The translations under genes were made by a program, and so were the position numbers. Below, piece by piece: positions 3,649 to 40,386 of a stretch of 40,386 nucleotides of DNA. The DNA comes from Sulfurospirillum sp. (lineage in GTDB: Bacteria; Campylobacterota; Campylobacteria; Campylobacterales; Sulfurospirillaceae), in NCBI GenBank assembly GCA_026987955.1, contig JALSME010000100.1:1-40386 (forward strand), given 5' to 3'. A model generated the notes under the pieces. That model was not told the origin of the DNA and did not search any database. It saw nothing but the letters and a program-made list of their open reading frames with translations. The stretch's first letter is position 1, and the number at the start of each line of letters is the position of its first letter.

Positions 3649-4338
3649 GTGTTTATATGTAAAAAACTTTTCATAAAAAATGATGATGTAAAGCTTGTAG
3701 ATATAAGTTTTAGTTTTAAAAATTCATTTGCACTGATTGGTGAAAGCGGGAGTGGTAAAAGTTTAAGTTTAAAGGCTCTTTTAGGTATGTTACCAAAAAC
3801 TTTAGATGTGGAGATTGAGTTAGATAATTTTGATATAAAAAGAGGTAAAAGTGTTGCACTTGTTCCTCAAAACCCCTTTACTGCCCTATCTCCTCTTACA
3901 AAAATAATAGATCAATTTTTGGTTAGTAAAAATGAGGCAAAAGAGTACTTTGGTATGGTTGGTTTAGAGAGCAGTTTTCTTGATAGGTTTCCAAGTGAAT
4001 TGAGTGGTGGACAGCTTCAGCGTGTCGTTATCGCTTTTGCGCTTCAGTTAAAGCCAAAACTCCTTCTACTTGATGAGCCAACAACAGCTCTTGATATTAA
4101 GAGTAAAGAGGCAATACTGAAACTTTTAAAGACTCTACATGTAGAGCAGGGATTTAAGATGATGTTTGTAACTCATGATATCGATGCTGTTGAGAACCTC
4201 TGTGAAGAGATAGGCATAATTAAAAAAGGCAAAATAATTGAGAGCGGTAACTTGAAAGAGATTATCTCAAACCCAAAAGAGATGTATACTAAAGAGTTAA
4301 TAGACTCTGGTTTTAAAAATAGGAAATTTAGAGAATGA
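3649..4338 (+). CDS. ABC transporter ATP-binding protein (DppD/NikD-like), orphan
   Basis: Walker A GESGSGKS, LSGGQLQR signature, Walker [16 protein letters not shown] start; no permease nearby. Confidence 0.88.
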   Translation: MFICKKLFIKNDDVKLVDISFSFKNSFALIGESGSGKSLSLKALLGMLPKTLDVEIELDNFDIKRGKSVALVPQNPFTALSPLTKIIDQFLVSKNEAKEYFGMVGLESSFLDRFPSELSGGQLQRVVIAFALQLKPKLLLLDEPTTALDIKSKEAILKLLKTLHVEQGFKMMFVTHDIDAVENLCEEIGIIKKGKIIESGNLKEIISNPKEMYTKELIDSGFKNRKFRE

Positions 4339-6260
4339 AGTACATAATAACAATATTTTTAGCAGGCGTTTTTCTAGTTGCAGCAGGGCTTGTTTACCTC
4401 TATTCACAAATTCGTTTTGATGCTTATAAAATAATAGACTACAACCCAAATGTGAGTACTCAAATATATGACAGGAATGGAGAACTAATTGCTAATATAT
4501 TTGAAAAACATCATAGATTATACGCCAATTATGATGAAATACCAGCTCGAGTAATAGAGGCACTTGTAGCTATTGAAGATACATCATTTTTTGAGCATAA
4601 GGGAGTAAATTTTGAAGCTATTTTTAGAGCAATAATTAAAGATATAAAGGCTATGAAGCTTGTTGAGGGTGCTAGTACTATCACTCAACAACTTGTTAAA
4701 AATACAGTTTTAACTAGAGAGAAAAAAATAATTAGAAAGTTAAAAGAGGCACTTTTAGCTTTCAAAATAGAAAATGAACTTACGAAAGAGCAGATTTTAG
4801 AGAGGTATTTTAATCATGTATATTTTGGTAATGGTTATTATGGTATAAAAACAGCTGCACAGGGGTATTTTCACAAAAATTTAGATGCTTTGAGTCTAAA
4901 AGAGATAGCAATTTTAGTTGGTCTTCCAAAAGCACCTAGTGCATATGATCCTACTAGAAATATTGATCTATCTTTAAGTAGAGCAAATAGAGTTTTATAT
5001 AGAATGAATGCTTTAGGCTGGATAGGGGAGAAGAAGTATAGAGAGTCTATATCAGAGCAACCTATAGTTTATGATGAGACACTTACTAAAAATAGAGCTC
5101 CCTATATTGTTGATGAGGTTATAAAAAGAGCTAGTAAAGACTATGATGATTTTAAAACAGGCGGATATAAGATATATTTAGGTGTAGATATACGGCTTCA
5201 GGCTCTTGCTAGAAAGTCACTTAAATATGGTTATGACGAGATTTTCAAACGCCATCCAAAAGATGCTAATAATACTTTAATTAATGGTGCTTTGGTTGTA
5301 TTGGATAGCAAGAGTGGTGATATCTTGGCAATGGTAGGTGGTGTTGATTACAAAAAATCAAGTTTTAATAGAGCAGTACAGAGCAAAAGACAACCAGGGT
5401 CTGCATTTAAACCTTTTATATATCAAAAAGCTTTAGATATCGGTTATTCTACAATGAGTGAAATTCCAGATATATCAAGAGTTTATACAGATAAAAAAAC
5501 AGATAAAGATTGGAAACCAAAGAACTATGAAGGTAATTTTGAAGGACTTTTAACTCTAAAAGAGGCATTAGTTCATTCAAGAAACTTGGCAACTATAAAC
5601 CTTGTAAATGCACTAGGACTAGATAGTCTTTATAAAGAGTTAAAAAAAGATGGATTTAAAGATATACCTTATGATCTCTCTTTATCTCTTGGAAGTTTTG
5701 GAATATCTCCTTTGGAATTTAGTGGTTTTTACTCTATGTTTCCAAATTATGGTGTAAAAGTTGAGCCTAGATTAATCAAAAAAGTTGTTGATAGATTTGG
5801 AAATGAGACAATATTTGAAGATGAAAAAAAGAGAATTACTTCACCAGAACAAGCCTTTTTGATGGTAGATATTTTGCGTACAACAGTAGAGAGAGGAACA
5901 GGTAGGAGAGCAAAAGTAGCTGGTATTGAGACTGCAGGTAAAACAGGAACTACAAACAAAAATATTGATGCTTGGTTTTGTGGTTTTACTCCAGAGATAG
6001 AAGTTTTGGTCTGGTATGGTAATGATGATAACTCACCAATGCCAAAATATGAAACGGGTGGCAGAGTAGCAGGTCCTGTATTTTCTCAATTTGTCAAGGG
6101 TTATATCGATATTTATCCTCAAACAAAAAGAAAATTTATTCCTCCTGAAGGTGTTATGATGAGAAAAATAAATGGTAGAAATGAGTACTTTACAAAAAGG
6201 TCTCCAATGCCACAAACAAATAGTATAGAAGAAAATGAAAGTGGAGGAATGTTGTTTTGA
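4335..6260 (+). CDS. penicillin-binding protein 1A (transglycosylase/transpeptidase)
   Basis: GT51 motifs EDTSFFEHKG and GASTITQQLVKN; transpeptidase SAFKPF, KTGTT. Confidence 0.95.
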   Translation: MKYIITIFLAGVFLVAAGLVYLYSQIRFDAYKIIDYNPNVSTQIYDRNGELIANIFEKHHRLYANYDEIPARVIEALVAIEDTSFFEHKGVNFEAIFRAIIKDIKAMKLVEGASTITQQLVKNTVLTREKKIIRKLKEALLAFKIENELTKEQILERYFNHVYFGNGYYGIKTAAQGYFHKNLDALSLKEIAILVGLPKAPSAYDPTRNIDLSLSRANRVLYRMNALGWIGEKKYRESISEQPIVYDETLTKNRAPYIVDEVIKRASKDYDDFKTGGYKIYLGVDIRLQALARKSLKYGYDEIFKRHPKDANNTLINGALVVLDSKSGDILAMVGGVDYKKSSFNRAVQSKRQPGSAFKPFIYQKALDIGYSTMSEIPDISRVYTDKKTDKDWKPKNYEGNFEGLLTLKEALVHSRNLATINLVNALGLDSLYKELKKDGFKDIPYDLSLSLGSFGISPLEFSGFYSMFPNYGVKVEPRLIKKVVDRFGNETIFEDEKKRITSPEQAFLMVDILRTTVERGTGRRAKVAGIETAGKTGTTNKNIDAWFCGFTPEIEVLVWYGNDDNSPMPKYETGGRVAGPVFSQFVKGYIDIYPQTKRKFIPPEGVMMRKINGRNEYFTKRSPMPQTNSIEENESGGMLF

Positions 6261-38762: not shown

Positions 38763-39965
38763 ATGTATAAACGACATCTTGACTCATTGGTTAGCGAAGC
38801 ACTGAAGGTAAGTCCTGTAGTTTTACTCAGTGGAGCCAGACAAGTTGGTAAATCTACATTGGCTATGAAAAAGGTCAAAAACTATAAACTTTTTGATGAT
38901 GTAGCACTTCGTGATTCAGTTCTTAGTGATGCAAAACTATTTTTAGGCACTTTAAAAAAACCAGTATGTTTAGATGAGATACAAAAAGTTCCTACTCTTC
39001 TAGAACCTATAAAAATGGATGTTGATAACAATAGAGTAAATGGTTCATATCTTTTAACTGGTAGTGCTTCGATACTCGATATGAAGAGTATTGGAGATAC
39101 TTTGGCTGGTCGCATCATAGAACTAACTCTTTATCCTTTGAGCTCGTATGAGATAAACTCTAAAGAAGAAAATATTATAGAAAAACTTTTTGCAAAAGAT
39201 GTTCTACATGTAGACAAAATAAGTTATGATAAAAAAGTAAAAACTATAGTAAACGGAGGATACCCAGAGTATTTAAAAATAGAAAATGAAAAGATAAAAA
39301 GTTACTGGTTTAGCTCATACATAAGTACTTACATAGAGAGAGATGTAAGGGACATAGCTAACATAAGAGACTTAGATGCTTTTATAAGACTTTTCAATCT
39401 TTTAGCTCCAAGAAGTGCAAATATTGTAAAAACAAATGAACTAGCAAACTCAAGTTCGCTTAATATTGAGAGTGTAAAGAACTATCTTAAAACACTAGAA
39501 ATAGTCTATCAAATAAAGTTTTTAAAACCATATAGTTCAAATATATCAAAGAGATTTATAAAATCAAAAAAACTTTTTTTCTTAGATAGTGGTTTGCTTA
39601 GTCATCTTTTTGGAGTATATAGCATAGATGACTTCAACAGTTCTAGACAAAAAGGACAAATAGCCGAGACTTATGTATATGCTGAACTGTTAAAACATAT
39701 AGGTTTTTTTGATAAAAATTGTGAAATATATCATTATAGAACAAATGATCAAAAAGAGATAGATTTTATACTTAAACTATCAGATAAGCTTATAGCCATT
39801 GAAGTAAAATCATCAAAAAGTATATCAAAATCTGATTTTAAGCATATAGTAGATTTTAAATCTAAAGAAGATGATTTTCATTTAGGTATAGTTTTTTACC
39901 TTGGAGATGAAGTATTGCCTTTTGGGACAGGTTTATATGCTTTGCCTATCTCTTTTTTTATGTAA
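38763..39965 (+). CDS. AAA ATPase with DUF4143 domain
   Basis: VVLLSGARQVGKSTLA; PVCLDEIQKVPTLL; YLLTGSASI; C-terminal DFILKLSDKLIAIEVKSS. Confidence 0.9.
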   Translation: MYKRHLDSLVSEALKVSPVVLLSGARQVGKSTLAMKKVKNYKLFDDVALRDSVLSDAKLFLGTLKKPVCLDEIQKVPTLLEPIKMDVDNNRVNGSYLLTGSASILDMKSIGDTLAGRIIELTLYPLSSYEINSKEENIIEKLFAKDVLHVDKISYDKKVKTIVNGGYPEYLKIENEKIKSYWFSSYISTYIERDVRDIANIRDLDAFIRLFNLLAPRSANIVKTNELANSSSLNIESVKNYLKTLEIVYQIKFLKPYSSNISKRFIKSKKLFFLDSGLLSHLFGVYSIDDFNSSRQKGQIAETYVYAELLKHIGFFDKNCEIYHYRTNDQKEIDFILKLSDKLIAIEVKSSKSISKSDFKHIVDFKSKEDDFHLGIVFYLGDEVLPFGTGLYALPISFFM

Positions 39966-40010: not shown

Positions 40011-40090
40011 GATCTTGAGGGTTGGATCTTGAGGGTCGGATCTTGAGGGTCGGGTATTTACTTTGATCTTGAGGGTCGGGTATTTACTTT
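40011..40090. repeat. tandem/interspersed 14-bp repeat (GATCTTGAGGGTCG), last two copies with the 12-bp spacer GGTATTTACTTT
   Basis: Units 40011-40024 (one T variant), 40025-40038, 40039-40064, 40065-40090; the last two 26-mers are identical. Confidence 0.95.
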
Positions 40091-40191
40091 TACTCTTTAT
40101 CCCCATCTGACCTGTAAATATTACTCCTCTCTATACCTCTGTTCACTATATGGTGAAATCCTGCCATATCTAATCTAGGTCTTCTTCCCAC
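40090..40191 (-). pseudogene. N-terminal remnant of a REP-associated (Y1/HUH) transposase
   Basis: Minus strand from GTG at 40191: MGRRPRLDMAGFHHIVNRGIERSNIYRSDGDKE*; typical TnpA-REP N-terminus, then a stop at the repeat junction. Confidence 0.82.
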
Positions 40192-40236
40192 TTTTTATCC
40201 TCTGATTTTTTAAAAATAGTATAGCATAAAAAGTGG
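40188..40236. mobile_element. inverted repeat at the start of the transposase remnant, possible element-end hairpin
   Basis: CCACTTTTTAT (40188-40198) / ATAAAAAGTGG (40226-40236), perfect 11-bp arms, 27-nt loop. Confidence 0.55.
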
Positions 40237-40259
40237 CGATTCACGACACGGTACTTTAG

Positions 40260-40386
40260 TTGATTGATAAAAATTCTATACTAATTAGATATGGCGGAGA
40301 TGAATTTATAGTTTTATCTCATGTAACTGATTGTCAAGAGTTACAACAATTGAGTCAGTCCATTATAAAATCATTATCACAACCAT
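40260..40386 (+). pseudogene. GGDEF-domain (diguanylate cyclase) fragment, 5' truncated, running off the window
   Basis: LIDKNSILIRYGGDEFIVLSHVTDCQELQQLSQSIIKSLSQP; in-frame TAG at 40257, so the domain N-terminal half is missing here. Confidence 0.75.

Follow-up and report, generated by a model that had tools for sequence, protein, structure and literature searches.

The last few hundred nucleotides of the window (the whole stretch of DNA analysed, 40,386 nucleotides, which constitutes an entire contig) carry a hybrid remnant of the TIRYT family of Y1 transposases: its left end and the peptide it encodes belong to clade A of the family and its right 20-nt end belongs to clade B. We consider it likely that this remnant arose when a rearrangement brought two TIRYT ends together and has since degenerated, that it is dead, and that the duplication of flanking DNA together with the edge of the terminal inverted repeat (TIR) seen beside it is general at TIRYT ends. 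The sequence-only reading had described a truncated Y1 start fused to a repeat array, which holds, but it had overlooked that a left terminal repeat lies at 40225-40256 and that the window is a whole contig. The features of the remnant and its neighbouring genes are collected in Table 1.

Table 1. Coordinates of the remnant, its array and the neighbouring genes in the window
Feature	Position	Strand	Remarks
AAA_14/DUF4143 ATPase gene, array side	38763..39965	+	apparently intact, outside the element; Pfam DUF4143 E 2.9e-43, AAA_14 E 2.6e-21
Reiteration array outside the B end	40011..40072	+	four copies of the flank GATCTTGA (40011, 40025, 40039, 40065); after each of the first three comes a truncated TIR start
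Right end of remnant, clade B terminal repeat GGGTCGGGTATTTACTTTTA	40073..40092	+ (inward orientation)	1 mismatch to the C59 TIRs
Truncated TIRYT tnpA	40090..40191	-	33 codons, GTG start; nearest full-length relatives are clade A
Left terminal repeat, clade A type, AAGTACCGTGTCGTGAATCGCCACTTTTTATG	40225..40256	- (reads 40256..40225 along the tnpA strand)	same type in G003:C1 and G119:C63
5'-truncated GGDEF (diguanylate cyclase) gene	40260..40386	+	adjoins the left end and runs off the contig; open frame of 42 aa that matches positions 70-112 of the Pfam GGDEF profile (E 6e-5)

Two ends of different clades

The truncated tnpA translates as VGRRPRLDMAGFHHIVNRGIERSNIYRSDGDKE*, with a start codon that is GTG (read as M) and not ATG, and with TAA as stop codon. 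Its peptide shows 72% identity to an intact 258-aa transposase from a genome of the same genus (G039:C27), with 90% identity over 49 nt at the DNA level, which places it with the N-terminal sequence of the family and confirms that a Y1 N-terminus ending after 33 codons is real. A Pfam search with the 33 residues that are left gave no match and thus no Y1 catalytic domain, the intact relatives contain PF01797, and the remnant gene has lost the HUH motif, the catalytic Tyr and the putative C-terminal helix-turn-helix (HTH). For the C-terminal extension expected to resemble an HTH in intact members, the G039 protein gave weak sigma70-r4-type matches below the cut-offs. It had also been observed correctly that the reading frame stops where the repeat begins: the stop codon (40090-40092) lies within the clade B end sequence, which supplies the TAA, and one base, 40090, is common to the reading frame and the second 26-mer of the array.

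The terminal repeats of the remnant are of two types, AAGTACCGTGTCRTGAAT on the left and TAAAAGTAAATACCYGACCC on the right. The left repeat is present as a single copy in the genome, and its type recurs in a 64-bp mini-element (AAGTACCGTGTCATGAATAGCCACTTTTTATG) and in a 187-bp internally deleted element of two other genomes. Its inner part, TGAATC-x-CCACTTTT, is common to intact clade A elements, the inner half matching their TIRs, e.g., ...GTGAATGAATCTCCACTTTT; an intact element with exactly the left repeat of the window was not found among the relatives examined. The right end, which reads TAAAAGTAAATACCCGACCC along the tnpA strand (40092..40073), is one base off both TIRs of an intact element on contig C59 of the same genome (inverted ends GGGTCAGGTATTTACTTTTAACT...AGTTAAAAGTAAATACCTGACCC) and also one base off a solo copy of this end at C69:9614-9633. 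In a tree of 96 proteins, those with A-type TIRs are split from the long B-type proteins (327-356 aa) by a 100/100 branch. Clade A members rank first by similarity to the window peptide, an assignment that is based on 33 residues and one 32-nt repeat.

A left end and peptide of clade A with a right end of clade B point to a deletion or rearrangement that joined two TIRYT ends and not to an element with its own 3' repeats. An internal deletion connecting the transposase start to its own 3' array, as had been proposed, is thereby partly correct, as internal sequence must have been lost but the 20-nt end belongs to the other clade. The array goes with the clade B end, and the transposase gene has no part in it. 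The outcome that had been named as refuting, no related transposase or repeat anywhere, did not come about, as both parts have relatives: the genome encodes three intact Y1_Tnp genes on contigs C50, C59 and C63, of which the C50 transposase is clade A-like and the C59 transposase is clade B, and G039:C27 and the solo end on C69 add to these.

As a separate observation, the ribosome-binding site and start region of the truncated tnpA can pair with the inner left repeat (40182-40238, minus strand; RNA fold -14.4 kcal/mol, z -3.7). The predicted hairpin would probably be formed only by transcripts begun outside the element, and insertion sequences are known to be protected from read-through transcription in a similar way. 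Visual inspection of G039:C27 and C50 showed no counterpart of this pairing.

History and mobility of the remnant

In the simplest history, the DNA between a clade A element by the GGDEF gene and a clade B end that followed the ATPase gene would have been lost. A clade A element would once have been located beside or inside the GGDEF gene; nearly all of it, its own right end included, would then have been lost with the left repeat, the leader and the first 33 codons being kept, and a junction would have formed between this start and a 20-nt B end, either solo or part of a clade B element, a short way past the DUF4143 ATPase gene. A search of the assembly for the rest of the clade A gene gave three matches, those on C50, C59 and C63, and no such remainder, and a DNA search among relatives in the family, yielding mainly tnpA, terminal-repeat and ATPase matches, returned no empty pre-insertion site.

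The main alternative to a deletion between two elements is that a clade B transposase placed a solo, REP-like B end into a clade A tnpA and that the rest of the A gene was lost later. The solo end at C69:9614 agrees with this, as its match to the B consensus, like that in the window, stops at nucleotide 20 and as it is preceded by a reiterated flank, ATATACGCAATATACGA; on the other hand, an extra deletion is needed, this is the only other solo copy in the genome and no remainder of the A gene lies beyond the array, so that we regard such an insertion as unlikely. A misjoining of two unrelated ends by the assembler is very improbable: the genome is a draft of 143 contigs and this contig ends at 40386, 130 bp past the left repeat, but no k-mer-sized sequence is shared across the A/B junction that could have misled the assembler, neither flank is found elsewhere in the assembly and the array pattern recurs independently in other genomes.

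The remnant is most likely dead. The sequence-only reading had considered it a possible non-autonomous derivative that can be moved by an intact copy; such a derivative would resemble a MITE (miniature inverted-repeat transposable element). Members of the family can indeed move, as one genome (G184; L172, G184:C1:1117400-1123300) contains two TIRYT copies, 996-1856 and 3968-4828, that are 100% identical over 861 bp and lie at different sites with different flanks, showing that some members moved recently. Intact clade A-like (C50) and clade B (C59) transposases are available in the window's own genome, and other genomes contain derivatives that have an internal deletion and two matching A ends, i.e., the 187-bp clade A miniature, the interior of which still reads like a TIRYT C-terminus (G119:C63; L195, 41000-43000), and the 64-bp mini-element, a near-palindrome (G003:C1; L099, around 2622-2685). 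Nevertheless, mobilisation of the window copy in trans would be quite improbable: its left and right ends are of different clades, only one copy is present in the genome, and the C50 ends (CGTCAAATCTCCACTTT) are unlike the left end of the window in their outer part. As the two ends are mismatched, no single transposase known here is expected to recognise both, and the absence of HUH motif and Tyr, the mismatched ends and the lack of a second copy in the genome together make mobility as a unit unlikely.

Further observations on family members concern their inheritance and decay. In genus g4 the element is found at an apparently common site with similar flanks in many genomes, which indicates that other family members were inherited vertically. 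In one of the two G184 copies the outer GGGGTC of the left TIR is missing. The genome that encodes the intact G039:C27 transposase also contains a second truncated TIRYT start of 38 codons (G039:C11; L061, 20000-22700), behind which lie two small RelE/ParE-like genes, identified by eye as a pair, and further on a clade B-like end, GGGTCAGAGATTTACTTTTA.

Flank reiteration at TIRYT ends

Together with the B end the tandem array spans 40011-40092. The four repeat units reported before, two of them as identical 26-mers, are present: GATCTTGAGGGTYG occurs at 40011, 40025, 40039 and 40065, and the 26-mers at 40039-40064 and 40065-40090 hold the last two copies. With at most one mismatch, GATCTTGAGGGTYGG has four matches in the window and none in each of 100 dinucleotide shuffles. 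On the plus strand the array is composed of GATCTTGA+GGGTTG, GATCTTGA+GGGTCG, GATCTTGA+GGGTCGGGTATTTACTTT and GATCTTGA followed by the full B end, i.e., a constant 8-nt flank with a TIR outer edge of variable length (6, 6, 18 or 20 nt). A search of 84,980 genomes with the 18-mer GATCTTGAGGGTCGGGTA returned 16 matches, mostly in high-GC genomes and lacking the TATTTAC continuation, which were judged to be due to chance.

The same architecture is found at the C59 element, where an 8-9-nt flank, (G)CATTTGCA, is reiterated outside the right end, and at many relatives, such as AAGTCTA+GGGGTCA three times in G321, AAACAGA+GGGGTC in G346 and AAATTTA+GGGTCAGG in G039. In a survey of TIRYT ends the last six flank bases recurred within 90 nt at 41 of 128 ends, compared to 7/126 to 9/126 in far-flank controls, i.e., the identical test shifted 60-80 nt outward; the count of 41/128 is approximate as near-copies inherited vertically, most of which lack arrays, were counted too and four ends (the window, C59 twice and C69) were added by hand. 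Of the 74 extra flank copies, 30 continue into the TIR start for 2 nt or more. Two explanations were dropped. A fixed cleavage offset of 8 nt, suggested by the window and C59, does not fit the flank lengths of 6-17 nt across loci, and an origin of the flank repeats by target-site duplication does not fit the unrelated flanks at the two ends of an element.

At TIRYT ends a short host flank would be duplicated in tandem together with a variable length of the TIR outer edge. This probably happens incidentally, either when DNA nicked by the transposase is re-synthesised over a limited stretch and ligated again or when the polymerase stalls and switches template at the TIR. A more specific possibility, which we put forward only tentatively, is that the TIRYT transposase nicks a short distance outside the TIR, and that the 3' end is extended variably into the TIR before being joined again to the displaced flap. 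One unit of flank plus TIR start would be gained with every abortive cycle, the arrays would be an enzyme-made record of past cleavages, and solo ends would arise by the same process. The remnant itself is an ordinary case of decay in a known family and its comparative by-product is modestly interesting: tandem arrays of flank plus truncated TIR occur at TIRYT ends in this bacterial order far above chance, may constitute a sequence footprint of how a little-studied enzyme family handles DNA, or of replication across its ends, and could guide the mapping of cleavage in vitro.

Putative clade B cargo and comparison with known systems

The most unusual by-finding lies outside the main finding and concerns the clade B elements. 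Their transposases possess a conserved C-terminal extension of ~100 aa without Pfam match (L066, L177-L185, L111), and at 10 of 12 clade B loci an AbiEii-type nucleotidyltransferase gene, or a piece of one, overlaps downstream; in the two downstream genes tested, Pfam AbiEii was matched with E 5e-14 and 9e-14. In the C59 element (L066, G000:C59:11000-13954) the last codons of the AbiEii-type gene are encoded by the right TIR. The location of the gene between the TIRs suggests that C59 is a TIRtron with toxin-antitoxin-like cargo and that TIRtrons can carry such cargo.

The sequence-only reading had called the transposase REP-type. Its family is that of the TIRYTs (TIRtron, TnpA_REP subclass 2.1) and not REP/RAYT. 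Matching TIRs of 15-34 bp starting with GGGGTC flank most intact tnpA genes among ~100 relatives, and in most intact copies they carry a GGGGWSAS-like motif, e.g., AGGGGTCAGGGCTAAACTTTTAACTTTTTA; the window copy deviates from this with its A-type left and B-type right end. Genes flanked by such TIRs were named TIRYTs and the elements TIRtrons (Di Nocera et al., 2013; PMC3733652). TIRYTs belong mostly to TnpA_REP subclass 2.1, a subclass whose prevalence in the epsilon-, beta- and delta-proteobacteria has been described (Quentin et al., 2018; PMC6006769). The intact relatives fit this description, with a Y1 tnpA of ~250-260 aa, GGGGWSAS-like TIRs and the epsilon-proteobacterial prevalence, whereas in the window copy only 33 codons are left, between the ends of two clades.

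REPtrons and their RAYTs (REP-associated tyrosine transposases) resemble the family in having a related Y1 transposase. However, direct reading of the window and of the flanks of C50, C59, C63 and G039 revealed no GTAG-tagged palindromic REPs around tnpA, and the ends in the window's family are terminal inverted repeats, each the complement of the other rather than a self-complementary hairpin. Bacterial MITEs are similarly internally deleted, with terminal repeats and without coding capacity, and the 187-bp (G119) and 64-bp (G003) elements are likely examples in this family; the window copy differs from a trans-mobilised MITE by its mismatched ends and its single copy.

For the arrays, no earlier report of flank plus variable-length TIR-start reiteration directly outside TIRYT ends was found in the open-access literature searched. 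The TIRYT/TIRtron literature describes TIR copies in dimers or clusters in some genomes (PMC3733652, PMC6006769), and in published REP clusters some units are repeated in tandem along with variable lengths of adjacent DNA (PMC3733652), which makes the reiteration at TIRYT ends akin to a known phenomenon.
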